DNA of 64,000 nt from Rhizobium binae (GTDB lineage Bacteria > Pseudomonadota > Alphaproteobacteria > Rhizobiales > Rhizobiaceae). Positions 42,173 to 61,965 of the stretch are shown piece by piece. The notes beneath the pieces were generated by a model. It was not told the origin of the DNA and did not search any database. It saw only the letters and a program-made list of their open reading frames with translations. Location of the stretch: the NCBI RefSeq assembly GCF_017357225.1, contig NZ_CP071607.1:62001-126000 (forward strand), in the 5' to 3' direction. The translations under genes and the position numbers were made by a program. Positions within the stretch are counted from its first letter, which is position 1. Every line of letters begins with the position of its first letter.

Positions 42173-43846
42173 TCAGTTCCCGAGAATGCCGGGCAGGCGC
42201 AGACCCTTGTCCCTCGCGCAGTCGAGGGCGATGTCGTAACCGGCATCGGCGTGGCGCATGACGCCGGTCGCCGGGTCGTTCCAGAGCACCCGCTCAAGAC
42301 GCCTGGCCGCATCGTCGGTGCCATCGGCGCAGATGACGACGCCCGAATGCTGGGAGAAGCCCATGCCGACACCGCCGCCATGGTGCAGCGATACCCAGGT
42401 GGCGCCAGACGCCGTGTTGAGCAGTGCGTTCAGCAGCGGCCAGTCGGAGACGGCGTCGGAGCCGTCCTTCATCGCTTCGGTTTCGCGGTTCGGCGAGGCG
42501 ACGGAACCGGAGTCGAGATGGTCACGGCCGATGACGATCGGGGCGGAAAGTTCGCCGTTCTTGACCATTTCATTGAAGGCCAGAGCCAGGCGGTGGCGGT
42601 CGCCGAGGCCGACCCAGCAGATGCGCGCCGGCAGGCCCTGGAAGGAGATGCGCTCTCTGGCCATGTCGAGCCAGTTGTGCAGGTGCTTGTTGTCGGGCAG
42701 CAGTTCCTTCACCTTGGCGTCGGTCTTGTAGATATCCTCCGGATTGCCCGACAGGGCAGCCCAGCGGAAGGGACCGATGCCGCGGCAGAACAGCGGCCGG
42801 ATATAGGCCGGCACGAAGCCGGGGAAGGCGAAGGCGTTCTCGAGGCCTTCGTCCTTGGCGACCTGACGGATGTTGTTGCCGTAGTCGAGGGTCGGAATGC
42901 CGGCATTCCAGAAGGCGATCATCGCTTCGACATGCTCGCGCATCGAGGCGCGCGCGGCCTTTTCGACCGCCTTCGGATCGCTTTCGCGCTTGGCCTTCCA
43001 CTCGGCCATCGTCCAGCCCTTCGGCAGGTAGCCATTGATCGGGTCGTGGGCCGAGGTCTGGTCGGTGACGATGTCGGGGCGGATACCGCGGCGGACCATT
43101 TCCGGCAGGATTTCGGCGGCATTGCCGAGCAGGCCGACGGATTTGGCTTCGCCGGCCTTGGTCCAGCGGTCGATCATCTCGAGCGCTTCGTCGAGCGTCT
43201 CGGCCTTGGCGTCGAGATAGCGGGTGCGCAGGCGGAAATCGATCGAGTCAGGGTTACATTCGACGGCGAGGCAGCAGGCGCCGGCCATGACGGCGGCGAG
43301 CGGCTGGGCGCCACCCATGCCGCCGAGGCCGCCGGTCAGGATCCATTTGCCCTTGAGATTGCCGCCGTAGTGCTGGCGGCCGGCCTCGACGAAGGTCTCG
43401 TAGGTGCCCTGCACGATGCCCTGTGTGCCGATATAGATCCACGAGCCGGCCGTCATCTGGCCGTACATGGCAAGGCCCTTCTTATCGAGCTCGTTGAAAT
43501 GGTCCCAGGTCGCCCAGTGCGGCACGAGGTTGGAGTTGGCGATCAGCACACGGGGCGCATCCTTGTGGGTGCGGAAGACGCCGACCGGCTTGCCGGATTG
43601 CACCAGCAGCGTCTCTTCTTCCGTCAGCGTCTTCAGCGTCGCGACAATGCGGTCGAAGTCCTCCCAGGTACGGGCGGCTCGGCCGATGCCGCCGTAAACG
43701 ACGAGCTCGTTCGGATTTTCGGCGACATCGGGATCGAGATTGTTCATCAGCATGCGCAGCGGCGCTTCGGTCATCCAGCTCTTGGCATTGAGCTCGTTGC
43801 CGCGAGGCGCACGGATTTCGCGGATATTGTGGCGTGGATTGCTCAT
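42173..43846 (-). CDS. hutU: Urocanate hydratase
   Basis: 557-residue urocanase converting urocanate to 4-imidazolone-5-propionate with tightly bound NAD+. The length is standard. Characteristic segments are [66 protein letters not shown] (NAD binding) and the C-terminal [23 protein letters not shown]. It is separated from hutG by 24 bases in the same operon. Confidence 0.97.
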
Positions 43847-43870: not shown

Positions 43871-44680
43871 TTATCGTTTCAGGCCTGGCGCTATCTGCTC
43901 GATGCGCACCAGAATGTCTTTGAGATGGACGCGAAGCCTGTCCGCTTTCGTAGTGTCGTAGGCAAATGGCGGCGCCTCGCTCTGCAGATGGGTCGATTGC
44001 GCGAGCTCCATCTGGATCGCATGCACGCCGGTCTCGGGCCGGCCATAATGGCGGGTCGTCCAGCCGCCCTTGAAGCGGCCGTTGAGCACGCTGTCATAGC
44101 CATCTGCGGCTTCGACGACGGTCAGCGTCGCCTGCTCGATGGCGCCGTCGCATGTCCTGCCCATATCGGTGCCGATATTGAAATCCGGCAGCTTGCCTTC
44201 GAAGAGGAAGGGAATGTGCGAGCGGATCGAGTGGCAATCATAGAGGATCGCCACGCCGTGCATTGTTCTGACGCGCTCGATCTCGGCGGCAAGGGCGGCA
44301 TGATAGGGCGCATGAAAGTCCCTCAGCCGCGCCGCGATATCGGCCTCGTCAGGCGCCTGCCCATCCTTCCAGATCGCCTTGCCGTCGAAGTCCGTTTCCG
44401 GGACGAGGCCTGTGGTGTTCTGGCCTGGATAAAGGCTGACGCCCTGGGGATCGCGGTTGGCGTCGATCACATAGCGGTGGAAGGTGGCGCGCACGGTTGT
44501 GGCGTCGGACAGCAGGCCATCATACAGCTCGTGGATATGCCAGTCGGTATCGGCGAGGATCCGGCCATTGTCGTTGAGGCGATCGTAAATCGCCGGCGGC
44601 ACGTCGGTGCCAGTATGGGGGAAGGCGAGGATGACGGGGGAGGTGCCCCGATGAATTTCGTATGGGACGGTCATGGGCAA
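43871..44680 (-). CDS. hutG: N-formylglutamate deformylase
   Basis: 269-residue FGase-family amidohydrolase that releases formate from N-formylglutamate, the last step of the five-step route in which HutF first removes ammonia from formiminoglutamate. Motifs include SPVILAFPHTGTDVPPAIYDRLND, IDANRDPQGVSLYPGQNTTG and ILYDCHSIRSHIPFLFEG (metal ligands). The presence of hutF and hutG together, with no formiminoglutamase, agrees with that route. A 47-bp inverted repeat sits immediately upstream of the start. Confidence 0.94.
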   Translation of the reverse strand: MPMTVPYEIHRGTSPVILAFPHTGTDVPPAIYDRLNDNGRILADTDWHIHELYDGLLSDATTVRATFHRYVIDANRDPQGVSLYPGQNTTGLVPETDFDGKAIWKDGQAPDEADIAARLRDFHAPYHAALAAEIERVRTMHGVAILYDCHSIRSHIPFLFEGKLPDFNIGTDMGRTCDGAIEQATLTVVEAADGYDSVLNGRFKGGWTTRHYGRPETGVHAIQMELAQSTHLQSEAPPFAYDTTKADRLRVHLKDILVRIEQIAPGLKR

Positions 44681-44876: not shown

Positions 44877-46412
44877 TCAACCCTCCAGAACCGGCAAGAT
44901 GCCTGACGAAACCGAGGCGTTCAGCGCGCCCGTCGCCACCAGTTCCGCGGCGGCGGCGAGGTCGTTTGCCATGTAGCGGTCGACGTCCAGGCTCGGCACC
45001 TGCCTGCGGATTGCCGCGATCGCCTTCAAAAGCTCCGGGCTCGTTGCGAGCGGCGCGCGCAGTTCGACGCCCTGGGCGGCGGTCAGCGCCTCGATGCCGA
45101 TAATGCCGAACAGGTTTTCGGTCATCTGCAGCAGGCGGCGGGCGCCGTGGCAGGCCATCGAGACGTGGTCTTCCTGGTTGGCCGAGGTCGGCGTCGAATC
45201 GACCGAGGCGGGGTGCGACATCTGCTTGTTCTCAGACATCAGCGCCGCCGAGGTGACCTCGGCAATCATCAGGCCGGAGTTGAGGCCCGGCTTCTTGGCG
45301 AGGAAGGCCGGCAGGCCGTAGGAGAGCACCGGGTCCACCAGCAGCGCGATGCGGCGCTGCGAGATCGCACCGATCTCGCAGACGGCGAGGGCGATCTGGT
45401 CGGCGGCGAAGGCGACCGGTTCGGCGTGGAAGTTGCCGCCCGATACAACCGAATTGTCCGACAGCACCAGCGGATTGTCGGTGACCGCATTGGCCTCGAT
45501 CTCCAACGTGCGGGCGACCGAGCGCAAGAGGTCGAGGCAGGCGCCGTCGACCTGCGGCTGGCAACGGATGCAATAAGGATCCTGCACGCGCTCGTCGCCC
45601 TCGATGTGGCTCTGGCGGATGACGGAGTTTTCCAGCAGGCCGCGAAGCGCGGCTGCGGTATCGATCTGGCCCTTGTGGCCGCGCAAGGTATGGATATCGG
45701 CATGGAAGGGTGCCGAGGAGCCCATGGCGGCGTCAGTCGACATCGCGCCGGTGATCAAGGCGGACTGCGCGGCGCGATGGGCGCGGAAGAGGCCGGCAAG
45801 CGCCAGCGCCGTCGAGGTCTGCGTGCCGTTGATCAGCGCCAGGCCTTCCTTGGCGGCGAGCACGACCGGTTTCAGTCCGGCCTTTTGAAGGGCAGCTGCG
45901 CCGGAAAGGCGCTCGCCGCCGAAGAAGGCTTCGGCCTCGCCCATCATCACCGCCGCCATGTGGGCGAGCGGCGCAAGATCGCCGGAGGCGCCGACCGAGC
46001 CCTTTTCCGGGATCAGCGGGATGACGCCCCTATCAAGCATGCCTTCGATCAGCCGCACCAGCTCCAGCCGCACGCCGGAGGCGCCGCGGCCGAGCGAGAC
46101 CAGCTTCAGCGCCATGATCAGCCGGACGACATTTTCCGGCAGCGGCGCGCCGATGCCGCAGCAATGCGACAGGATGAGATTGCGCTGCAGCGTGGCGACG
46201 TCAGCGCTGTCGATCTTGATCGAGGCGAGTTTGCCGAAGCCGGTATTTATGCCGTAAACCGGCGCATTGCCGGCGGCGATTTCGGCAATGCGGGCGGCGG
46301 CCTTGGCGATACCGGCATCGAAGGCGGGATCGAGCCTTGCCGGCTCGCCGGTCCAATAGATGCTTTCCAGATCCTTGAGCGAGACGGAGCCCGGGTGGAG
46401 CGTAATGGTCAT
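44877..46412 (-). CDS. hutH: Histidine ammonia-lyase
   Basis: 511-residue enzyme deaminating histidine to urocanate. Ala142-Ser143-Gly144 in [14 protein letters not shown] form the MIO prosthetic group, with numbering identical to the Pseudomonas putida enzyme. [23 protein letters not shown] (Tyr280 type) and [10 protein letters not shown] (Glu414 type) are all intact. The ATG at 46412 overlaps the hutI stop by 4 bases; the longer open frame upstream is the hutI 3' end. It is a good internal control for the altered homologue at 54096. Confidence 0.97.
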
Positions 46413-47671
46413 CGACCGTTCCTTTCGCCTTTGAAGACGCGTGTATGAAGCGGGTTGAAGCCGATGCGGTAGACGAGCTCGGCAAGGCTCTCGATATTCC
46501 AGACGGCGAGATCGGCAGATTTGCCGGCTTCGAGCGTTCCGGTCTCGCCGATGAGGCCGAGGGCGCGGGCACCTTCGCGGGTGGCACCGGCGATGCATTC
46601 CTCGACGGTGAGGCCAAACAGCGTCGCCGACATGTTCATGGTGAGCAGCATCGAGGTGAGCGGCGAGGTGCCCGGATTGCAATCGGTGGCGATTGCGATC
46701 GGCACGCCCGCCCGGCGCAGCGCCTCCACCGGCGGCTTCTGCTTTTCATGAATGGCGTAGAAGGCGCCGGGCAGCAGCACGGCGACGGTGCCGGCGGCGG
46801 CCATTGCCGCAACGCCTTCCTCGTCGAGATATTCGAGGTGATCGCAGGAGAGCGCGCCATAGGCGGCCGCCAGCTTGGCGCCGCCGAGATTGGAGAGCTG
46901 CTCGGCATGCAGCTTGACCGGCAGGCCGAGAGCCTTCGCCTTGTCGAAGACGCGGGCGATCTCGGCCGTCGAAAAGGCAATGCCTTCGCAGAAGCCGTCG
47001 ACGGCATCGGCTAGGCCGAGATTATACATGTCGTCGAGACCGGGCAGCACAATTTCGTCGAGATAGTCGCCGTTGCGGCCCTTATAGTCGACAGGCGTCG
47101 CATGCGCGCCGAGATAGCTGGTGGCAACGCGGACCGGCCTGACATGGCCGAGCAGGCGGGCGCTCTGCAGCATCTTCACTTCGCCGGTTCGGTTGAGACC
47201 ATAGCCGGATTTGATCTCGATCGTCGTCACGCCTTCGGCAAGCAGCGTATCGAGCCGCGGCAGCGCCGTGGCGACAAGTTCCTCGACCGACAGGGCATTG
47301 GTTGCCTGAACGGAGGAGACGATGCCGCCGCCGGCCCGCGCAATCTCCTCATAGGAGGCGCCTTCGAGCCGCATCTCGAATTCGCGGGCGCGATTGCCGC
47401 CGTGAACGATATGGGTGTGGCAGTCGACGAGACCCGGTGTCACCCAGCGGCCTTCGAGATCGATGATGTCCGAGCGTTCGATCGCCGATGCCGGCAGCTC
47501 GCTTTCAGCGCCGGCAAAGGCGATGCGGCCGTTTTCGATCAGAACGGCGCCCTTTTCGATGATGCCGAGCCCGGCTTTGTCTGGTGCGAGCGTCGCCAGG
47601 CGCGCATTGCGCCACAGCGCCGGCCTGACGTCGGCGGATGCGGTCTCTTCAGAAAAATTGTTCCCGGTCAT
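46409..47671 (-). CDS. hutI: Imidazolonepropionase
   Basis: 420-residue amidohydrolase hydrolysing imidazolonepropionate to N-formimino-glutamate. The metal motif [23 protein letters not shown] and [16 protein letters not shown] plus [17 protein letters not shown] match the family. ATG 47671 is chosen because the upstream frame runs into the divergent hutF leader. It is first in the leftward hut operon. A perfect ATGTATATACAT palindrome lies 30-41 bases upstream. Confidence 0.96.
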
Positions 47672-47700
47672 CAGCTTTGCGCCTTTCCTTATGCCGAAAC

Positions 47701-47712
47701 ATGTATATACAT
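47701..47712. promoter_or_regulatory. Putative HutC operator between hutI and hutF
   Basis: ATGTATATACAT, a perfect 12-bp palindrome, lies in the divergent hutI-hutF region (starts at 47671 and 47794). HutC-type GntR repressors bind TGTATATACA-like sites, so one site could control both directions, with urocanate as inducer. Confidence 0.7.
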
Positions 47713-47793
47713 AATAAGCAGGTGACAAGAGAAATTTTGCGCGCTCTTCTGGAAAAGAAAGATCGGCGGCGCGGCAGAAGGGGAGAAAAGGCC

Positions 47794-49140
47794 ATGACCA
47801 CACTTCACGCAGGCACGGCGCTGACGCCGCAAGGCTGGCAGAAGGACGTGCGGCTGACGCTCGAGGCCGGGCGCCTCGCCCGGGTCGAGGTGGGCGTTGG
47901 CGCCGCGCCCGGCGATGAGCGCCATGCCCTGATCGTCCCGGCCATGGGCAATCTGCACAGCCACGCCTTCCAGCGGGCGATGGCCGGTCTTGCCGAGGTG
48001 CGCGGCCCGACAAACGACAGCTTCTGGAGCTGGCGCACGGTCATGTACAAGTTCGCTTTGGCGATGACGCCGGAGCATGTCGAGGCGGTCGCAGCCAAGC
48101 TCTACGCGGAGATGCTGGAGGCAGGCTTTTCCCGGGTTGGCGAGTTCCACTATCTCCATCATGATAAGGACGGAGCGGCCTATGCCAATATTGCCGAGCT
48201 TGCCGAACGTATCGGTGCGGCGAGCCAGGAGACGGGCATCGGTCTGACCCTGCTGCCGGTCTTCTATGCCCATTCCGGTTTCGGCGGCGCTCAGCCGATC
48301 GACGGCCAGCGGCGCTTCATCAATTCGCTCGAAAGCTTCGAAAGGCTGATGGAAGGATGCCGGGCGGTGATCGGCAGGCTCGACGGCGCCGAACTCGGAC
48401 TGGCGCCGCACAGTTTGCGGGCGGCTACCCCGGAGGAACTGGCCAGGGTCGTGCCGTTGGCGGGCGAAGGCCCGATCCATATCCATGTCGCCGAGCAGGT
48501 GAAGGAGGTCGAGGACTGCGTCGCCTGGTCGGGCGCGCGGCCGGTCGAATGGCTGCTCGATCATATGCCGGTGGATGAGCGCTGGTGCCTCATCCATGCG
48601 ACGCACATGACCGAGGACGAGACGCGGCGGATGGCGAAACGCGGCGCGATTGCCGGCCTCTGCCCGATCACCGAGGCCAATCTCGGCGACGGCGCCTTTC
48701 CCGCGCCGCTCTTCCTTGAAGAGGGCGGGCGTTACGGCATCGGCTCGGATTCCAACGTGCGGATCTCCCTGCCGGAGGAACTGCGCCAGCTCGAATATTC
48801 GCAGCGCCTGGCGCTGCGCGCCCGCAATGTCGTGGCCGCGCCCGGCGGTTCGACGGCGCTTTGCCTGTTCAACCAGGCGCTTGCCGGCGGCGGCGCGGCG
48901 CTGAAGGCCCCGGCGGGCATCGCCGAGGGCGGTCATGCCGATCTCGTTGCGCTCGATGCCACGGCCGTTCCTTATCTTTCCGGCGATCAGATCCTCGATC
49001 ACTGGCTGTTTGCCGGCGGCATTTCCGTCGATTGCGTCTGGGCGCGCGGCCGCAGGCAGGTAGAGGGCGGTCGCCATCTCAAGCGTGACGCCATCGATCG
49101 TCGATTCCTTGCTGCGATGGGTGAGTTGCTGGCTGCCTGA
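47794..49140 (+). CDS. hutF: Formimidoylglutamate deiminase
   Basis: 448-residue amidohydrolase converting N-formiminoglutamate to N-formylglutamate and ammonia. It starts at ATG 47794 behind GGGGAGA. Features: [25 protein letters not shown] (metal histidines), [31 protein letters not shown] and [16 protein letters not shown]. It supplies the substrate for HutG. It is divergent from hutI and followed by hutC. Confidence 0.95.
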
Positions 49141-49201
49141 AAAAGCGCTTTTCACGGTGGCGCATTCGATCTAGATCGGAAAACCAAATCGGAACTTGGC
49201 G

Positions 49202-49924
49202 ATGAATCAAAGCAGGGATACCACCTTGCATCAGCGCATCCTGGGCGACATCGAGGGCCGTATCGTCTCGGGCGAATGGCCGCCGGGGCATCGCATTCCT
49301 TTCGAGGTCGATCTCGCCACGCAGTATGACGTCTCGCGGATGACGGTGAACAAGGTGCTGACCCAGCTCGCCAAGGCCGGCCTGATCGAGCGCCGCAAGA
49401 AATCCGGCAGCTTCGTCACCCAGCCGCAGGCGCAATCGGCGGTTCTCGAAATCCACGACATCAAGGCCGAGGTGCAGTCGCTGAACCTGCCCTATTCCTA
49501 TGCGGTGTCGAAGAAGGCGAGCCGCAAGGCCAAGGCGGAAGACAGCCGCCGGCTGGAGCTGCCGGTCGGGTCCTCGGTCGTCGAGGTCGTCTGCATCCAC
49601 AATGCCGGCGCACGGCCCTTCTGTTTGGAGGAGCGGCTGATCAGCCTTGCGACCGTGCCGGAGGCGGCCGATGCCGATTTCCTGACGGTGGCGCCGGGGC
49701 CGTGGCTGCTCAACCAGGTGCCGTGGAGCACCGCCGAACACCGGATCCACGCCGTCTCCGCCAGCGCCGAGGTGGCGGCCGTCCTCGACATCGCCCGCAA
49801 CACCGCGTGCCTGGTGGTGGAGCGCCGCACCTGGAGCGGCGCCGGCCCGGTGACCCACGTGCGCTTCACCTATCCCGGCGATCGTCACGCGCTGGTGGCG
49901 CGATTCACACCGGCGTCGCAATAA
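49202..49924 (+). CDS. hutC: Histidine utilisation repressor (GntR/HutC family)
   Basis: 240 residues from ATG 49202 (TTG 49196 is possible). The N-terminal winged helix LHQRILGDIEGRIVSGEWPPGHRIPFEVDLATQYDVSRMTVNKVLTQLAKAGLIERRKKSGSFV is classical GntR, and the C-terminal UTRA domain binds urocanate in HutC proteins (residues about 80-235). It should repress the hut operons. A short palindrome CGATCTAGATCG at 49167-49178 lies in front of it. Confidence 0.92.
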   Translation: MNQSRDTTLHQRILGDIEGRIVSGEWPPGHRIPFEVDLATQYDVSRMTVNKVLTQLAKAGLIERRKKSGSFVTQPQAQSAVLEIHDIKAEVQSLNLPYSYAVSKKASRKAKAEDSRRLELPVGSSVVEVVCIHNAGARPFCLEERLISLATVPEAADADFLTVAPGPWLLNQVPWSTAEHRIHAVSASAEVAAVLDIARNTACLVVERRTWSGAGPVTHVRFTYPGDRHALVARFTPASQ

Positions 49925-49957: not shown

Positions 49958-50713
49958 TTAATCTTCGAACATCTTGCCGCTGCGCGCCTCGAGCCGATAG
50001 CGATAGCCGGGATAGACGAGGCGGGCGGTCGAGACCACCTGTTTGGCCGACCATGTGCGCCGGCGGATCGTCAGGCAGGGCTCGCTCTTCAGGATGGTCA
50101 GGAGCTTGCATTCCCAGGCCTGCGGCATCGCCGCCTCGACGACGTGCTCGGAGCCGCTGAGCGGGGCGGCGGCCGTCAAATAAGCGTTCGGCGTCAGCGT
50201 CGTGAAGTCCTGCTCCAGATATTCGGGAGCGGCCTCCGGATGGACGAACCGGTCCTCGATCTGCACGGGAACGCCGTTTTCGCTGTGCACGATCAGCGAG
50301 TGGAAAACGGCCGCGCCGATTGCCAGTTCCAAGGCGTCAGCAATCTCGGGAGAGGCGGTTTCCCGGGCCAGAACGACGACAGTGGCCTCGTGGATATGAC
50401 CGCGTTCGGCGATCTCCTCGGCGATGTTGCGCACCTCGAACAGCGCTGAATAACCCTTGCGCTCGGCCACGAAGGAGCCGACGCCCTGGATGCGGACGAG
50501 TTCGCCTTCGTTGGCAAGCTCGCGCAGTGCCCGGTTGGCGGTCATCTTGCTGACGCCGAGTTCGACGACCAGTTCGTTTTCCGACGGCACGCGGTATTTC
50601 GGCGGCCATTCGCCGCTGTGGATGCGGTCGAGGATCACCTGCTTGACGCCGGCGTAGAGCGGCGTGCTGTCATTTCCCGCCAGGTCGCGCTTCATTTCGC
50701 CGGAACGCTTCAT
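49958..50713 (-). CDS. GntR-family regulator with UTRA domain (HutC paralogue)
   Basis: 251-residue regulator with a GntR winged helix (about 20-80: LYAGVKQVILDRIHSGEWPPKYRVPSENELVVELGVSKMTANRALRELANEGELVRIQGVGSFV) and a UTRA ligand-binding domain. It is clearly related to the adjacent HutC. It converges on hutC (33-base gap) and is divergent from the amino-acid ABC transporter and lyase-like operon, whose promoter region carries an ATATGGTACCATAT palindrome. I infer that it controls that operon in response to its substrate or product; the name HutC is not justified. Confidence 0.88.
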   Translation of the reverse strand: MKRSGEMKRDLAGNDSTPLYAGVKQVILDRIHSGEWPPKYRVPSENELVVELGVSKMTANRALRELANEGELVRIQGVGSFVAERKGYSALFEVRNIAEEIAERGHIHEATVVVLARETASPEIADALELAIGAAVFHSLIVHSENGVPVQIEDRFVHPEAAPEYLEQDFTTLTPNAYLTAAAPLSGSEHVVEAAMPQAWECKLLTILKSEPCLTIRRRTWSAKQVVSTARLVYPGYRYRLEARSGKMFED

Positions 50714-50784
50714 TGCCTATTCCTTTTGCACGGATGCAATTTGCCACATAAACGACTTTCCTCTTGCATATCACAAAATATCTC

Positions 50785-50798
50785 ATATGGTACCATAT
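50785..50798. promoter_or_regulatory. Candidate operator of the GntR-2 regulated transporter operon
   Basis: ATATGGTACCATAT is a perfect 14-bp palindrome between the GntR gene (start 50713) and the binding-protein gene (start 50907). TTGCAT at 50764-50769 could be a -35 for rightward transcription, which would put this palindrome over the -10 region, a place suited to repression. It differs from the hut palindrome at 47701, fitting separate regulators. Confidence 0.6.
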
Positions 50799-50906
50799 AC
50801 AACCTCCCAATCGGTCCTGGACACAAAAATAGGACGGAAAGGGCAAGCCGGCGAAGATCGGCGTGGCGCCGCAAGGTCTGTTTCAACTCCAGAGGAGAAT
50901 TCATCA

Positions 50907-51749
50907 ATGAAATTCAGCACAATCCTGTTTTGCGGCGTCGCCGCTCTTTCCGCCTTTGCTGCCCCCGCCTTTGCCAAGGACTGGACGAAGGCGACCATCA
51001 CGCTTGAAGGCGCCTATGCGCCGTGGAACCTCACCAATGCCGACGGCACGCTCGGCGGCTTCGAGCCGGAGCTTGCCAAGGTGCTGTGCGAACGCGCCAA
51101 GATCGAATGCACGCTCGTCGCTTCCGACTGGGACGGCATGATCCCGGCGCTCAATGCCGGCAAGTTCGACGTCATCATGGACGCGCTGTCGATCACCGAG
51201 GAGCGCAAGCAGGTCATCGACTTCACCGTTCCCTATGCCGCGACACCCGCCGCCTTCGCCGCCGCCAAGGACAGCCCGCTGGCGAAAGCCGCCGGCACCG
51301 GCGCCACGATCAAGATGACGCCCGGCCAGACCGGCGTTAAGGAGATCGACGCGCTGAAAGAGGCCTTCAAGGGCAAGACGATCGGCATCCAGGCGGCGAC
51401 CGTCTATGCCAAGTTCGTCTATGACAATTTCGGCGACATTGCCGAGATCCGCGAATACAAGACCGGCGCCGACCGCGATCTCGACCTGCAAAACGGCCGC
51501 ATCGACCTCGGCTTCGATGACGCCGTCTATTTCGCCAATGCTTTCCAGGCCGCCAACGGCGCGCTCGACTTCACCGGTCCGGAGATCGTCGGCTCGATCT
51601 GGGGCGAGGGCGAGGGCCTCGGCGTCCGCAAGGCCGACACCGATCTGCGGGACAAGTTCAACGTGGCGATCAAGTCGGCGCTCGCCGACGGCACGGTCAA
51701 GAACCTTTCGATGAAGTGGTTCAAGGTCGACGTCAGTCCGCAGCAGTAA
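50907..51749 (+). CDS. Amino-acid ABC transporter periplasmic binding protein
   Basis: 280 residues from ATG 50907 behind AGAGGAG. The signal peptide MKFSTILFCGVAALSAFAAP is cleaved near AFA-KD. The SBP family 3 fold shows ITLEGAYAPWNLTNADGTLGGFEPELAKVLCERAKIEC and a domain-2 segment GKTIGIQAATVYAKFVYDNF. The length and FEPELAKVLC motif fit the lysine/arginine/ornithine/histidine binders. It is the first gene of an operon with two permeases, an ATPase and the lyase-like protein. Confidence 0.92.
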   Translation: MKFSTILFCGVAALSAFAAPAFAKDWTKATITLEGAYAPWNLTNADGTLGGFEPELAKVLCERAKIECTLVASDWDGMIPALNAGKFDVIMDALSITEERKQVIDFTVPYAATPAAFAAAKDSPLAKAAGTGATIKMTPGQTGVKEIDALKEAFKGKTIGIQAATVYAKFVYDNFGDIAEIREYKTGADRDLDLQNGRIDLGFDDAVYFANAFQAANGALDFTGPEIVGSIWGEGEGLGVRKADTDLRDKFNVAIKSALADGTVKNLSMKWFKVDVSPQQ

Positions 51750-51776
51750 TCGCTTCGGCCGTTTGGCCGCAGGCGC

Positions 51777-51804
51777 CGGTCTCCGGCTTTATCGCCGGAG
51801 ACCG
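51777..51804 (+). promoter_or_regulatory. Perfect hairpin between binding-protein and permease genes
   Basis: CGGTCTCCGGC (51777-51787) pairs exactly with GCCGGAGACCG (51794-51804), with a 6-base loop TTTATC. There is no T-tract, so it is better read as an mRNA 3'-end protector or processing signal that raises the level of the binding protein relative to the permeases than as a terminator. Confidence 0.6.
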
Positions 51805-51854
51805 CGTGTTATTCTCGATCGACAAGAACACTGCCACGGACGGGGAACGACGCT

Positions 51855-52580
51855 ATGGCAACCTTGGAACTGCTTGGCTTCGGCTCGACGGGATGGGGCG
51901 CGCTGCTCATTCTCGCCGCCTTGATGACGCTGGCCGTCACCGCGACGGCGCTTGCGATCGGCGCGGTGCTCGGCGCCATCGTCGCGGGTGCGAAGCTCTC
52001 CGGCAATCCTCTCCTCGTCGCCTTCGGCAATGTCTATACGACCGTCTTTCGCGGCGTGCCGGAACTGCTGATCATCTATCTCATCTATTTCGGCGGTTCC
52101 TCCGCCGTCACTTCGATCGGCAAGGCGATGGGCTACGAGGGTTTCCTCGGCCTGCCTTCTTTCGCCGCCGGCGCGCTTGCCGTCGGCATCATCTCCGGCT
52201 CCTATCAGGCGGAGGTGTTCCGCGGCGCCTATCTGGCGATCGCCAAGGGTGAGCTCGAAGCCGCTTCGGCGATCGGCATGAATCGCGGCATGCGCTTCCG
52301 CCGCATCATCATCCCGCAGGTGCTTCGCTTCGCCATTCCCGGCCTCGGCAATGTCTGGCAGCTTAGCCTCAAGGATTCGGCGCTGATCTCCGTCACCGGC
52401 CTTGCCGAGCTGATGCGCACCAGCCAGGTGGCGGCGGGTTCGACCCGGCAATATTTTCTGTTCTTCATCGCCGGCGGCTGCCTCTACCTGATCCTGACCA
52501 GCCTTTCCGACCGCATCTTCAACGGCGCGGAACGCCGCGCCAATCGCAGCATGCCGGCCTCCGCCATGGGCCAGGCGTAA
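51855..52580 (+). CDS. Amino-acid ABC transporter permease (HisQ-like)
   Basis: 241-residue permease with five or six membrane helices and the family loop QVFRGAYLAIAKGELEAASAIGMNRGMRFRRIIIPQ-like motif (here EVFRGAYLAIAKGELEAASAIGM, EAA loop about 125-150). It forms one half of the channel with the next permease. It follows the binding-protein gene after a 105-base gap containing a stable hairpin. Confidence 0.92.
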   Translation: MATLELLGFGSTGWGALLILAALMTLAVTATALAIGAVLGAIVAGAKLSGNPLLVAFGNVYTTVFRGVPELLIIYLIYFGGSSAVTSIGKAMGYEGFLGLPSFAAGALAVGIISGSYQAEVFRGAYLAIAKGELEAASAIGMNRGMRFRRIIIPQVLRFAIPGLGNVWQLSLKDSALISVTGLAELMRTSQVAAGSTRQYFLFFIAGGCLYLILTSLSDRIFNGAERRANRSMPASAMGQA

Positions 52581-52590
52581 GGGGACGACG

Positions 52591-53295
52591 ATGGATTTCA
52601 CCTTTCTCGCCTCGACCATGGTGACGCTGCTGAAAGCCGTGCCGACGACGCTGATCCTGTTTTCGCTGTCGATCTTCTTCGGCGGTCTGCTGGCGCTGGT
52701 CATCGTCACGATGCGGGTCAGCGGCAACCGCTATCTGTCGGGTTTCGCCAAGGGCTATATCTTCGTCTTTCGCGGCTCGCCGCTCTTGATCCAGATGTTC
52801 CTGGTGTTCTACGGCCTCGGCCAGTTCGGCGTCATCCGCTATTCCTTCCTCTGGCCGTTCCTGCGCGAGCCGATGGTTTGCGCCGTGCTGTCGCTGGCGC
52901 TCTGCACCGCCGGCTACACGGCGGAGATCTTTCGCGGCGGCATCCGCGCGGTTTCGCCGAAGGAGATCGAGGCGGCCCGTTCGATCGGCATGTCCGGCTT
53001 CCTGATGGTGCGCCGCATCCTGGCGCCGATTGCCTTCCGCCACGCGCTGCCGGCCTATTCCACCGAGATCGTGCTGATGATGAAATCGACGGCGCTCGCC
53101 AGCCTCGTCACCGTCTGGGAGGTCACCGGTGTGGCCCAGCGGCTGATCTCGCAGACCTACCGCACGATGGAAGTCTTCCTCTGCGCGGCGATCATCTATC
53201 TCGTTTTGAACTTCATCATCCTGCAGGGCATGGCTCTGCTCGAATATTCGCTGTCCCGACACCGCCGTGCGATCCCGCAGGCGCTGAAGGCCTAG
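52591..53295 (+). CDS. Amino-acid ABC transporter permease (HisM-like)
   Basis: 234-residue partner permease. The EAA loop is EIFRGGIRAVSPKEIEAARSIGMSGFLMVRRILAP (about 112-146), followed by transmembrane segments and an RxL-rich terminus. It begins 10 bases after the HisQ-like stop. With the ATPase it completes a polar amino-acid importer. Confidence 0.92.
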   Translation: MDFTFLASTMVTLLKAVPTTLILFSLSIFFGGLLALVIVTMRVSGNRYLSGFAKGYIFVFRGSPLLIQMFLVFYGLGQFGVIRYSFLWPFLREPMVCAVLSLALCTAGYTAEIFRGGIRAVSPKEIEAARSIGMSGFLMVRRILAPIAFRHALPAYSTEIVLMMKSTALASLVTVWEVTGVAQRLISQTYRTMEVFLCAAIIYLVLNFIILQGMALLEYSLSRHRRAIPQALKA

Positions 53296-53322
53296 GCGGA
53301 ACCTGAATCGATTGGAGCAACC

Positions 53323-54099
53323 ATGCCAGGCGTAACCCGACTTTCGGTCCGCAATATCCGCAAGAGCTTCGGCACGCACGAGGTGCTGCGCGGCATTTCC
53401 CTCGATGCTGAGGACGGCGACGTGATTTCGCTGCTCGGCGCCTCCGGCTCCGGCAAATCGACCTTTCTGCGCTGCATCAATCTGCTCGAAACCGCAAGCG
53501 ACGGTGAGATCTGGGTCGATGGCGAGCACATCGAGATGGTTCACAAGAACGGCAAGACAAGGCCGGCCAGCCAGAAGCAGGTCGACCATATCCGCTCCGA
53601 ACTCGGCATGGTGTTCCAGTCCTTCAATCTCTGGTCCCATATGACGATCCTGCAGAACGTCATCGAAGGGCCGATCCATGTGCTGAAGCGGCCGCGCGCC
53701 GACTGCATCGCCGAGGCCGAAGCGCTGCTCGAAAAGGTCGGCATCGCAGACAAACGCCATGCCTATCCCGCCCATCTCTCCGGCGGCCAGCAGCAGCGCG
53801 CCGCAATCGCCCGCGCGCTCGCGATGAAACCGAAGGTCATGCTTTTCGACGAGCCGACCTCGGCGCTCGATCCGGAACTTGTCGGCGAAGTGCTGCGCGT
53901 CATGCGGGCGCTTGCCGAGGAAGGCATGACCATGCTCGTCGTCACCCATGAGATGAGCTTTGCCCGCAACGTCTCGAACCGCGTCGTCTTCATGCGCGAG
54001 GGGCTGATCGAAAGCAGCGGCAAGCCGGACGAGATGTTCACAACAGGCGCGACCCCCGCCTTCCGCCAATTCATCGGCCATTTCGGAACAGGGCAATGA
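53323..54099 (+). CDS. Amino-acid ABC transporter ATP-binding protein (HisP-like)
   Basis: 258-residue ATPase. Walker [10 protein letters not shown] (about 38-46), Q-loop [13 protein letters not shown], signature [15 protein letters not shown] and Walker [13 protein letters not shown] are all intact. It resembles HisP in length and in its charged C-terminal region. Its stop overlaps the start of the lyase-like gene (ATGA, 54096-54099), so the importer and the lyase homologue are translated together. Confidence 0.93.
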
Positions 54100-55586
54100 C
54101 GATCACCATCGAGACCGTGCTGACCTGGCGCGACGTCGCGCGCGTCGGGGCAGGGGAAGCGCTTGCGCTGTCGCCGGCCGCCTGGGCGCGGGTCGAGCAG
54201 GCAAGCCGCATCGTCGCCAGCATCGTCGAGACCGGCGTGCGCGCCTATGGCGTCAACACCGGCGTCGGCGCGCTTGCCGATACCGTGGTCGACCGGGCTT
54301 CGCAAAGCCTGCTGTCACGCAGCATCGTGCTCAGCCATGCCTGCGGCGTCGGGCCGCTGCTGGCCGGCCGCGATGTGCGCGCCATCATCGCCGCCCAGAT
54401 CGCCAATTTCGCCCATGGCCATTCCGGCGTGCGGCGCGAGATTGTCCAGCATCTCACAGCCTTGCTGGAACATGATTGCATCCCCGACGTGCCGTCGAAA
54501 GGCTCGGCCGGTTATCTCACCCACAATGCCCATACCGCGCTCGTCCTGATCGGCGAAGGCAGCGCCACTGTGGCCGGTCGGCGCATGAGCGGCCGCGAGG
54601 CGCTGGCGGCGATCGGCCTGCAGCCGCTGGTGCTCGGCGCCAAGGAGGGTCTGAGCCTCGTCAACGGCACGGCCTGCGCCACGGGGCTGATCGCCACGGC
54701 GCTTTTGCGCGCCGAACGGCTGCTCGACTGGGCCGATGCCATCGCAGCGCTGACGCTGGAAGCGGCAGGCTGCCAGATCGCCGCCTTTGATGCGGCGGTG
54801 CTGGCGCTGCGCCCGTCTGCCGGGATCGAAAAGGTCGGAGCCAGCCTGCGCGGTCGGCTCCAGGGCAGCGGCCTCGTCGCCGCCGCCTTCGGCCGGCGCA
54901 CGCAGGATGCGCTCAGCCTTCGCTCGGTGCCGCATGCCCATGGCGCCGGCCGTGACGTTTTCGACAATTCCGCCCGCATCGCCGATCAGGAACTTGCCTC
55001 GGTCACGGACAATCCGGCCGTCTCAGGCACGCCGGAGCAGCCGATCGTCGCCTCCGAGGCCCATGCCGTCGCCCCGGCGCTCGGGCAGGCGGCCGACAGC
55101 TTGGCGATTGCGCTGGCGCAGATCGGCGCGATCAGCGAGCGGCGCATGGACCGGCTGGTCAATCCGCTGGTCAGCGGCCTGCCGCCGTTTCTGGCGAGCG
55201 ATGCCGGCAGCCATTCCGGCTTCATGATCGCGCAATATACCGCAGCCGCGCTCAGCAACGAGAACCGCCGGCTTGCCGCACCCGCGGCCATGGACGGGGG
55301 CCTGACTTCCGGCCTGCAGGAGGATTTCCTCGCCCATCCGACGGCGGCCGCCGGCAAGCTGCTCGCCGTCATCGACAATGCCGAATATATCCTGGCGATC
55401 GAACTGATGGCCGCGACCCAGGCGCATGATTTCCTGGCGGCGACGGCGCCGCGGGCGGTAGGCACGGATCTCGTCTATCAGGTCGTGCGACAGCGCATCT
55501 CCCATTATGGCGACGAGCGGCCGCTGAGCGGCGATATCGAGGCCGCGCGTAGTCTGATCCGCGAGACCGCGCCGCCGGCCGTCTAA
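54096..55586 (+). CDS. Histidine-ammonia-lyase-like protein lacking the MIO Ala-Ser-Gly motif
   Basis: 496 residues, clearly homologous to aromatic amino-acid lyases ([38 protein letters not shown]) and of usual length. The MIO segment is altered: hutH in this window reads [14 protein letters not shown], whereas here it is [11 protein letters not shown] (residues 136-146), three residues shorter with Ala-Ser-Gly missing. The active-site tyrosine segment QDPYCIR becomes QDALSLR (Leu273). The Tyr of YGVNTG, the NGT asparagine, Arg276 and the QED glutamate remain. MIO-based ammonia elimination is therefore unlikely. It may be a binding protein, or carry another activity on the imported amino acid. 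It ends the operon. Confidence 0.88.
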
Positions 55587-59403: not shown

Positions 59404-61965
59404 TCAGGTGCGCGGCTTCAGATTTTCGGGGTCGTAGATCGGCTTGTATCCGACGCCGACAACCTCCACCGGATAGGTCTCGGCAAAATACTCGATATTT
59501 AGCTTGCGCCCGACCTGGCAGTGCGACCAGGGCAGATAGGCCAGCGCAATATTCTTGCCGACCGTCGGGCCGTAGGCGATCGAGGTCGTGTAGGAGCGGC
59601 GGCCGAGTTCGTCGACCAGGACCTCGCCGGTGGCGGGATCGACGACCGGCAGGTTGCCGACCGGATAACGCTTGACGCCCGATTTGTCGGTATTCTCGGT
59701 CATCACGAGCGTGCAGAGCATGGCCGGCTGGTGCTCACGCGCCTTGTATTCCAGATGTTTTGCCTTGCCGCGGAAATCGGCTTCCTTGACCTTCGGACGG
59801 GCGAGATCGGCCTCGATCAGATTGTACTGGGTCAGCAGGTCGGCGTTCTGCAGACGCAGGCTCTTTTCCATGCGGCGCGAGTTTGCATAGGTCTCGACGC
59901 CGAAGGCCATCACGCCGGTCGAGCGCAGCGCGTCCCAGACGGCGAGGCCGTCCTCGTACTTCATGTGCAGTTCCCAGCCCTGCTCGCCGACATAGGAGAT
60001 GCGGAAGGCGGTGACCGTCTTGCCGGCGATTTCAATCGGCTTGATCGCTGCAAAGGCGAAGTTTTCCTGATCGAGACCGGCCGGATCGGCAACAACCTTC
60101 TTCAACGTCTCGCGGGCATTCGGACCCCAGATGCCGATGGTGATGTATTTCTCCGAGACGTCGGTGATGGTAACATCAAGGCCGCGATCCTGGGCGACGC
60201 GCTTCATGTAGTGCAGGTCGCGCGGGCCGGCATCGGCGCCGTTGACGAGACGGCAGCGGTCGGCCATGCGGAAGACGGTGAAGTCGGCGCGGACCATGCC
60301 TTCGTCGTCGAGGAAGTGGGTGTAGACGCCCTTGCCGATGTTGGCATCGCCGCCGATCTTGGCGGCGCACAGCCATTCCATCAGCTCGACATGGTCGGGT
60401 CCCTCGATATCGACCATGTGGAAGTGGCTGAGATTGACGATGCCGCAATCCTCGCTCATCGCCAGATGCTCGGCATTCGAGACGCGCCAGAAATGGCGGC
60501 TGTCCCATTCGTTCTCGCGAACCGGCACGCGGTCGCCGTATTTTTCCAGAAGGTGCTCGTTGGCGGCGTAGCCGTGGGCACGTTCCCAGCCGCCGAGCTC
60601 CATGAAGTAGCCGCCGAGTTCCTTTTCGCGCTCGTAGAAGGGCGAGCGCTTGACGTTGCGGCCGGAGGCATAGGGTTCGCGGGTGTGGACAGCCGGGAAA
60701 TAGATCTTCTGGGCGGCTTCAAAGCAACGGCCCTCGATGAACTCTTCCGTCAGCTGATGCGGATAGAAGCGGGCGTAATCGATGCTGTTGTGGTCGATTT
60801 CGGTACGGCCGTCGGTCATCCAGTCGGCGATCAGCTTGCCATAGCCCGGGCCATCCTTGACCCAGATGGCGACGCAATACCAGAGGCCGCGCACCTTCTG
60901 GCTCTCGCCGCAGGATGGACCGCCGGCGGCGGAAACCTGCAGCAGACCGTTGAAGGAATGACCTTCGTTATAACCGAGTTCGCCGAGGATCGGCGTCAGT
61001 TCCATGGCGCGCTCGAGCGGCTCGATGATCTGTTCCATCTCGAGATCGCGCTGCGACGGCGAAAGGCGGGCTTCGTGTTTTTCGAGAAGCTCGCGCGGAT
61101 GGCACATGCGCGGATTGTTGGCTTCGTAATAGCCCCACTCGATCTGGCCGCCTTCGGTCGTCGCCGGGTCGCCGGTATCGCGCATATAGGCGGAGTTGCC
61201 CTGGTCACGCAGCAGCGGGAAGCCGATTTCCTTGCCGGTGCCTTCGAACTCGTTATAGGGACCGAAGAAGGTGAGCGGGTGATCGACCGGCATGACCGGC
61301 AGGTCTTCGCCGACCATCTCGGCGATCAGGCGTCCCCAGAGGCCGGCGCAGACGATGACGTGGTCGGCCATGATCGTGCCGCGATGGGTGACGACGCCCT
61401 TGATCCGGCCGCCTTCGACGATCAGCGATTTCGCCGGCGTATTGCCGAACACCTGCAGCTTGCCGGCCTTTTCGGCGGCATCGACCAGCTTGCCGGCGAC
61501 GGTCTGCGAGCGCGGGATGACGAGGCCGGCGTCCGGATCGAACAGACCGCCCATCACCTGATCTTCCTCGATCAGCGGGAACTTTTCCTTGATCTCGGAA
61601 GGGCTGACATAATGGGCGCGCGTGCCGAAAGCGCGGGCCGAGGTGAGCTTGCGCTTGATTTCCTCCATCCAGGCATCGTCGCCTGCGCGGGCCACTTCGA
61701 GGCCGCCGATGCGGGCGTAGTGGCCCATCTTCTCGTAGAAATCGATCGAATATTGCGTGGTCCAGACCGACAGATAGTCGTGGCTGGTGGTGTAACAGAA
61801 GTCCGAGGCATGGGCTGTCGAGCCGATATCGGTCGGGATGCCCGACTTGTCGATGCCGACGATATCGTCCCATCCGCGCTCGACGAGATGGTGAGCGATG
61901 GAGGCGCCGACGATGCCGCCGAGCCCGATGATGACGACCTTTGCCTTTTCCGGAAATGCTGCCAC
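59404..61965 (-). CDS. FAD-dependent dimethylglycine/sarcosine dehydrogenase-like protein with aminomethyltransferase domain
   Basis: 853-residue two-part enzyme. Residues about 1-390 form the FAD oxidase domain (VVIIGLGGIVGASIAHHLVERGW, about 10-32; conserved substrate segment WVKDGPGYGKLIADWM). Residues about 450-845 form a GcvT-type folate-binding domain (DFTVFRMADRCRLVNGAD, GIWGPNARETLKKVVADP, ISYVGEQGWELHMKYEDGLAVWDAL, LPWSHCQVGRKLNIEYF). It should oxidise a methylated glycine and pass the formaldehyde unit to tetrahydrofolate. Similar proteins act on dimethylglycine, sarcosine or other methylamines; which one cannot be seen. The gene stands alone. Confidence 0.88.
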   Translation of the reverse strand: MAAFPEKAKVVIIGLGGIVGASIAHHLVERGWDDIVGIDKSGIPTDIGSTAHASDFCYTTSHDYLSVWTTQYSIDFYEKMGHYARIGGLEVARAGDDAWMEEIKRKLTSARAFGTRAHYVSPSEIKEKFPLIEEDQVMGGLFDPDAGLVIPRSQTVAGKLVDAAEKAGKLQVFGNTPAKSLIVEGGRIKGVVTHRGTIMADHVIVCAGLWGRLIAEMVGEDLPVMPVDHPLTFFGPYNEFEGTGKEIGFPLLRDQGNSAYMRDTGDPATTEGGQIEWGYYEANNPRMCHPRELLEKHEARLSPSQRDLEMEQIIEPLERAMELTPILGELGYNEGHSFNGLLQVSAAGGPSCGESQKVRGLWYCVAIWVKDGPGYGKLIADWMTDGRTEIDHNSIDYARFYPHQLTEEFIEGRCFEAAQKIYFPAVHTREPYASGRNVKRSPFYEREKELGGYFMELGGWERAHGYAANEHLLEKYGDRVPVRENEWDSRHFWRVSNAEHLAMSEDCGIVNLSHFHMVDIEGPDHVELMEWLCAAKIGGDANIGKGVYTHFLDDEGMVRADFTVFRMADRCRLVNGADAGPRDLHYMKRVAQDRGLDVTITDVSEKYITIGIWGPNARETLKKVVADPAGLDQENFAFAAIKPIEIAGKTVTAFRISYVGEQGWELHMKYEDGLAVWDALRSTGVMAFGVETYANSRRMEKSLRLQNADLLTQYNLIEADLARPKVKEADFRGKAKHLEYKAREHQPAMLCTLVMTENTDKSGVKRYPVGNLPVVDPATGEVLVDELGRRSYTTSIAYGPTVGKNIALAYLPWSHCQVGRKLNIEYFAETYPVEVVGVGYKPIYDPENLKPRT

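Follow-up and report, generated by a model that had tools for sequence, protein, structure and literature searches.

Ergothionase, an ergothioneine trimethylamine-lyase of the PF00221 family that lacks the 4-methylidene-imidazol-5-one (MIO) prosthetic group, is known from Treponema denticola and Burkholderia sp. HME13. It is a precedent for a MIO-less lyase of this family. A second related system is found in Pseudomonas: P. fluorescens SBW25 and P. aeruginosa carry a hutTu-hutXWV-hutH1 insertion, and one account reports its HutH1 as dispensable for growth on histidine (PMC8871633). Here we describe a gene of Rhizobium binae that encodes a further MIO-less relative of histidine ammonia-lyase (HutH, or HAL). 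It is located at 54096..55586 on the forward strand of the window, i.e., the whole stretch of 64,000 nucleotides that was analysed (contig NZ_CP071607.1, positions 62,001 to 126,000). The histidine utilization cluster hutU, hutG, hutH, hutI, hutF and hutC spans 42 to 50 kb of the window, and is followed by a second regulator of the HutC family (HutC2) and by a divergent operon encoding a substrate-binding protein, two permeases, an ATPase and the lyase.

On balance, the window lyase is probably a MIO-independent trimethylamine-lyase of hercynine (histidine betaine), with its own importer and regulator. The broader proposal, that the elimination proceeds without MIO and that its substrate is a histidine with a quaternary alpha-nitrogen or some other N-substitution, can be advanced with considerably greater confidence. 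The basis of this reading is the loss of MIO with the other residues kept, the conservation of the clade, the gene linkages, and the presence, elsewhere in the genome, of a separate route for ergothioneine. The initial annotation had suggested, as one option, that the protein is a lyase whose chemistry differs and which works on the imported amino acid; the data support this idea, which would now be sharpened to the elimination of trimethylamine.

Loss of the MIO triad and retention of other active-site residues

The protein, an open reading frame of 496 amino acids, matches PF00221 over its full length (458.6 bits, residues 9-466, cut-off 27.3) and is under the HutH cut-off of NCBIfam (TIGR01225, 452.1 vs 539.15 bits). 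The initial annotation had described an alignment with histidine ammonia-lyase along the whole protein, the absence of the Ala-Ser-Gly triad in a loop three residues shorter, and a leucine, Leu273, at the tyrosine of the QDPY motif, which is the MIO partner in HutH. All of this is borne out by the alignment, where the MIO site reads S137-A138-G139-Y140. With respect to HAL from Pseudomonas putida (1gkj/1b8f), the window lyase is devoid of the triad and hence of MIO, Tyr280 is changed to Leu, and the region of Phe329 is altered. The canonical hutH of the window (44877..46412, reverse strand; 511 amino acids from the likely start), pointed out at the time as an intact control, does keep the triad. 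Tyr51, His81, Asn190, Gln270, Arg276 and Glu409 are retained in the window lyase, whose AlphaFold model reaches a pLDDT of 89.8 and a pTM of 0.91, residues 401-408 being poor.

The initial annotation had also proposed to check whether the loss is conserved within a clade. In a scan of one genome per species, which gave 551 encoding stretches, MIO is absent from all of the best 80 relatives (named, 70-96% identity), the closest named one among the matches listed being that of R. phaseoli, with 96% identity. With the window lyase counted in, 80 of 81 proteins read S---AGYL at the MIO site and one reads S---VGYL, and the equivalents of HAL Tyr53, His83, Asn195, Gln277, Arg283 and Glu414 are retained (in this HAL numbering, Y280 and F329 also appear in PDB titles). 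Furthermore, among 398 genomes of the phylum that were surveyed, 23, the source genome included, encode a member of the clade (identity of at least 45%); they belong to seven families of Pseudomonadota. MIO is absent in all 22 others, and the seven next-best survey matches that were fetched, with about 40-42% identity, all have it. An alignment of 23 sequences leaves invariant Tyr51, His81, Gly136, Ser137, Gly139, Tyr140 and His143, as well as Asn190, Gln270, Asp271, Leu273, Arg276, Glu409 and Asp410. Leucine occupies the MIO-partner site in all 116 MIO-less proteins tallied, so that the loss of MIO and the change from Tyr to Leu co-occur; a MIO-bearing protein (L145) has Tyr there by alignment.

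Hercynine is N,N,N-trimethyl-L-histidine, a betaine that fungi and actinobacteria synthesize. In the mechanism that we propose, HutC2 would repress the operon at a palindrome until the substrate or its product appears, and the ABC (ATP-binding cassette) transporter would import histidine betaine. The lyase would then eliminate trimethylamine by acid-base catalysis: the imidazole would be held by Glu409 and His81 and the carboxylate by Arg276 and Asn190, Tyr51 would abstract the beta proton, and Tyr140, placed at the MIO position, would help to line the trimethylammonium pocket. MIO would not be required, since electrophilic activation, which ammonia needs in order to leave, is unnecessary for trimethylamine, as in ergothionase. 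The product, urocanate, is the first Hut intermediate and would enter the canonical HutU/HutI/HutF/HutG route, encoded a few kb away. A profile search of the genome found no EgtD (PF10017), and the cell is therefore unlikely to synthesize its own hercynine.

Ten of the 11 plasmid rows listed with at least 73% identity to the window lyase carry the label hutH. Such records mis-annotate these proteins as enzymes of histidine catabolism, and a catabolic route for a betaine of fungal and actinobacterial origin may thus go unseen.

Ergothionase and the separate ergothioneine locus

The comparison with ergothionase was made with the protein of T. denticola (6s7j/6s7q). The window lyase and this enzyme share the PF00221 fold, the absence of MIO, the active-site Tyr, His, Arg and Glu, and the leucine at the MIO-partner site, where the segment QDALSLR stands against QDPLSFR. 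The loop sets them apart: it is of the GSxGxxD type on the ergothionase side (SSIGEGD in T. denticola) and one residue shorter than in HutH, whereas in the window clade it is GSxGY (GSAGY in the window lyase, without the GSxGxxD signature) and three residues shorter. A first tree required at least two changes to account for MIO loss. In a second one, from which a long row (L153) was dropped and to which the third PF00221 lyase of the genome was added, the GSxGY clade (26 rows) has a support of 98/90 and the ergothionase side (8 rows) of 100/100; the MIO columns were kept in both trees. The initial annotation had wondered about a known MIO-less branch. Such a relative does exist, namely ergothionase, but the window lyase belongs to a separate clade and carries another replacement sequence.

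Moreover, the genome appears to encode a dedicated route for ergothioneine elsewhere. On contig C1, outside the window, a second urocanase lies near the third PF00221 protein, and NCBIfam profiles delineate an ergothioneine degradation cluster (L163 7546-15054, G000:C1) with thiourocanate hydratase (1052.9 bits vs a cut-off of 930), thiohydantoin desulfurase (598.8 vs 440), the hydantoin-5-propionate amidohydrolase ErtD (775.9 vs 600) and the N-carbamyl-L-glutamate amidohydrolase ErtE (633.4 vs 520). The lyase of this contig is MIO-less, displays GSIGCAD, and has ergothionase as its best solved match; the linked hydratase and desulfurase are thus found with another lyase and not beside that of the window. 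The latter has instead Hut enzymes as neighbours, with a canonical urocanate hydratase HutU (42173..43846, reverse strand) that scores 976.7 bits with the hutU model (cut-off 375) and 690.7 with that of thiourocanate hydratase, under its cut-off of 930.

A second ergothionase, i.e., a trimethylamine-lyase acting on ergothioneine, ergothioneine sulfonate or S-methyl-ergothioneine, would agree with the shared fold, the missing MIO and the leucine at the partner site. Ergothionase is also reported from Agrobacterium radiobacter, a bacterium for which an ergothioneine sulfonate pathway is cited. Nevertheless, we regard this alternative as unlikely, because the window lyase falls in a separate clade and lacks the GSxGxxD signature, because the set of thiourocanate hydratase, desulfurase, ErtD and ErtE is accompanied on C1 by its own MIO-less lyase, and because the HutU encoded near the window lyase is canonical.

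Other MIO-less lyases of the ergothionase side, with GS[IV]GAAD, were observed at L134 7953-9458, L155 7968-9587 and L159 8001-9422; those of L134 and L155 adjoin genes of the ornithine-cyclodeaminase and YeiH/sulfate-exporter families, while L159 carries no annotation.

Transporters, neighbourhoods and the substrate

The genes located 5′ of the lyase encode, by profile match, an ABC transporter of the PAAT type, all on the forward strand: a substrate-binding protein of the SBP_bac_3 family (50907..51749; the search query began at 50910, without the Met), two permeases (51855..52580 and 52591..53295) and a HisP-like ATPase (53323..54099), whose gene overlaps that of the lyase by ATGA, as had been noted before. 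The nearest solved relatives of the binding protein are the octopine- and nopaline-binding proteins (198.5 and 182.1 bits), which hold alpha-N-substituted amino acids. In an alignment of 62 rows, in which the window protein is counted twice, all rows show Asp, Ala and Asp where HisJ has Ser69, Ser70 and Asp161, and 61 show Trp at position 52. Asp thus occupies two ligand-pocket positions (HisJ 69 and 161), unlike in the opine-binding proteins aligned. This acidic, aromatic pocket would fit a fixed positive charge; an opine such as histopine is also a possible ligand.

Transporters were tallied with home-made profiles within 5.5 kb of the lyase in the 80 named loci and in 20 survey loci; the latter cover the flanks of 20 out of the 23 clade-bearing survey genomes. 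The named loci comprise 55 with a binding protein of the amino-acid/opine type, nine with an OpuAC protein of the OsmF type and 16 with neither. In the survey loci, ProX-type OpuAC proteins predominate (10), followed by the amino-acid type (six), one OsmF type and one BCCT, while two have none. One locus tallied as OsmF type by profile alone (L130) also has a BCCT gene adjoining the lyase. Pfam and NCBIfam place representative neighbours in the OpuAC and BCCT families, near ATPases of the ProV/ChoV type. Since transporters for quaternary ammonium compounds recur across lineages and the residues for imidazole and carboxylate are retained, hercynine would be the simplest common substrate.

Relatives of the lyase often adjoin hut genes and HutC-type regulators (the cluster labels HutD, HutF and cluster 30 permease are tentative assignments, made in part from the window's own proteins). 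Two basal members of the clade, on a Rhizobium plasmid (L135) and on a Klebsiella plasmid (L136), adjoin OpuAC transporters, and a transporter of the dipeptide type lies near the lyase in L070 and L079.

The Klebsiella locus, on plasmid pKP12 of Klebsiella pneumoniae (NZ_MZ690485.1; L136 431-10304), is a plasmid-borne hut island, with hutU, a betaine transporter of the OsmF type, a GSVGY MIO-less lyase, hutD, hutC and a formimidoylglutamate deiminase. With the window lyase as query, tblastn retrieved 226 Klebsiella plasmid records, not all of the L136 type. On a plasmid of Rhizobium sp. ACO-34A (L137 7992-15974), a GSVGY lyase with 56% identity to the window lyase adjoins genes labelled as (2Fe-2S) and aldehyde dehydrogenase, together with carbamoyl/Zn hydrolases; these neighbours perhaps point to a Hut-independent fate of the lyase product.

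The second alternative is that another alpha-N-substituted histidine, e.g., the opine histopine or N,N-dimethylhistidine, is the substrate, again with urocanate as product. It is suggested by the kinship of the binding protein with those for octopine and nopaline and by a gene resembling N-methyl-L-tryptophan oxidase (in the example L017 6365-7522, 422.6 bits vs a cut-off of 257), which in the recurrent-cluster gene strings is the next listed gene after the lyase in 37 of 80 loci, and which is found within 5.5 kb in 31 of 80 under a stricter non-overlap rule. Such a downstream oxidase would suit lesser-methylated histidines. No such gene is present beside the window lyase. Against this alternative, betaine-type transporters (OpuAC, BCCT) take the place of the window's transporter in other lineages, and without MIO, secondary and tertiary amines leave less readily. 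We hold this alternative to be as doubtful as the second ergothionase.

The hercynine reading may extend to Pseudomonas. Two survey loci (L117 and L118), which we take as pseudomonads from their gene order, carry hutC, a HutD-like gene, hutU, a permease (with one further permease in L117), a three-gene OpuAC transporter, a MIO-less lyase, a MIO-bearing hutH, hutI and hutG. A MIO-bearing gene directly follows the MIO-less one in five survey loci; in L121-L123 the second gene of the lyase family is farther off, not adjacent. The place and the gene order in L117 and L118 correspond to those described for the HutH1 module (hutU-hutTu-hutXWV-hutH1-hutH), and the protein found there is MIO-less; HutH1 would, by gene order, probably be a member of the GSxGY clade. 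The Rhizobium gene differs in that it belongs to a separate operon with another type of transporter.

We lean, if only slightly, towards considering the whole GSxGY clade, spread over seven families of Pseudomonadota and probably including HutH1, as hercynine trimethylamine-lyases. They would constitute an additional point of entry into the Hut pathway and, next to ergothionase, a second MIO-less form, recognizable by its invariant Tyr at the MIO site and by Leu in place of the Tyr that partners MIO. If true, this would account for the dispensability of Pseudomonas HutH1 during growth on histidine, would give bacteria a route from hercynine to glutamate and trimethylamine, and would allow a MIO enzyme to be compared with a natural form that works after the loss of MIO.

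Several observations weigh against the hercynine reading. The window transporter is itself of the amino-acid/opine type, as in 61 of 100 loci, and none of the three modelled kinds was found in 18 of 100. Of the 80 named loci, only 31 show Hut enzymes in the flank examined; in L128 their place is taken by an efflux system and a LysR gene, and the basal L135 has genes for a coenzyme A-transferase and a hydratase, with no hut enzymes. The downstream oxidase of other loci may indicate that the substrates also include mono- or dimethyl histidine. A profile search found no member of the heme-dependent amine demethylase family PF11927 in the genome. No paper naming a hercynine lyase was found in a literature search for which subscription papers were mostly beyond reach. 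A joint MIO-less clade is not rejected in the second tree (p-AU 0.37), and therefore we make no claim of convergent MIO loss. As for Pseudomonas, PA5093 is a gene of the HutH1 type, annotated as probable histidine/phenylalanine ammonia-lyase. Another study names PA5093 hutG and reports that the deletion mutant is impaired when grown on histidine or urocanate (PMC12772324); if the label is right, this result counts against a role restricted to hercynine, and if it is a slip, it is neutral. In addition, the transporter encoded next to HutH1, HutXWV, is reported to contribute to the uptake of histidine (PMC8871633).

The initial annotation had also envisaged a substrate sensor or binder, which as a non-catalytic pseudoenzyme would tune the transporter or HutC2. 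The absence of MIO and the overlap of the gene with that of the ATPase would be in line with it. This idea is improbable and we discard it, because all the named acid-base and substrate residues are invariant in 23 diverse members; besides, the 18 loci mentioned above have no nearby transporter of the modelled kinds, and ergothionase shows that catalysis can survive the loss of MIO. The mutase that had been considered as well is disfavoured, a mutase of this family being expected to need MIO. Finally, the chance of a random decaying copy or a sequencing error is negligible: no point in its support was found, and the window lyase is a maintained protein, because the MIO loss is common to the 80 relatives kept, as it is to the 22 survey genomes, and the ratio of nonsynonymous to synonymous substitution (dN/dS) against the window lyase is 0.085-0.24 (30 of the 80 loci computed).

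The divergent regulator and the remaining genes

HutC2 (49958..50713, reverse strand; GntR/UTRA by profile) is divergent from the operon and scores 295.9 bits with the HutC model (TIGR02018, cut-off 220), close to the 298.4 of the first HutC regulator, HutC1, which is part of the hut cluster (49196..49924, forward strand). The paralogy inferred from the letters alone is thus upheld, and so is the perfect palindrome ATATGGTACCATAT at 50785..50798, a probable operator of the divergent regulator. Its core of 12 bases, TATGGTACCATA, is situated between HutC2 and the operon. Even if one mismatch is tolerated, the number of occurrences expected in the window is 0.01, and the core has a single exact occurrence in the 7.06 Mb of the genome, so that there is no wider regulon to compare. 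Given the position of the palindrome and this single genomic site, HutC2 is probably a private repressor of the lyase operon with a putative operator at the palindrome, in support of the dedicated regulator that had been predicted. The exact core is present in 26 of 54 loci with the HutC2-operon arrangement; among the 14 displayed, it is exact in five, has one base changed (TATGGTACCCTA) in six, and neither form is seen in three.

The rest of the hut cluster comprises an N-formylglutamate amidohydrolase of the HutG type (43871..44680, reverse strand; profile), an amidohydrolase that we take as HutI from its position and homology (46409..48013, reverse strand), and the formimidoylglutamate deiminase HutF, with a HutF_N domain (47638..49140, forward strand); the last two are given as listed open reading frames, the true starts being probably downstream.

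Farther along the window, 59404-61965 encodes a flavin adenine dinucleotide (FAD) oxidoreductase fused to a GCV_T domain, of the dimethylglycine/sarcosine dehydrogenase type. Several of the closest loci have relatives of this gene in the vicinity of the operon (cluster 20), and a role in the catabolism of methyl groups is possible.

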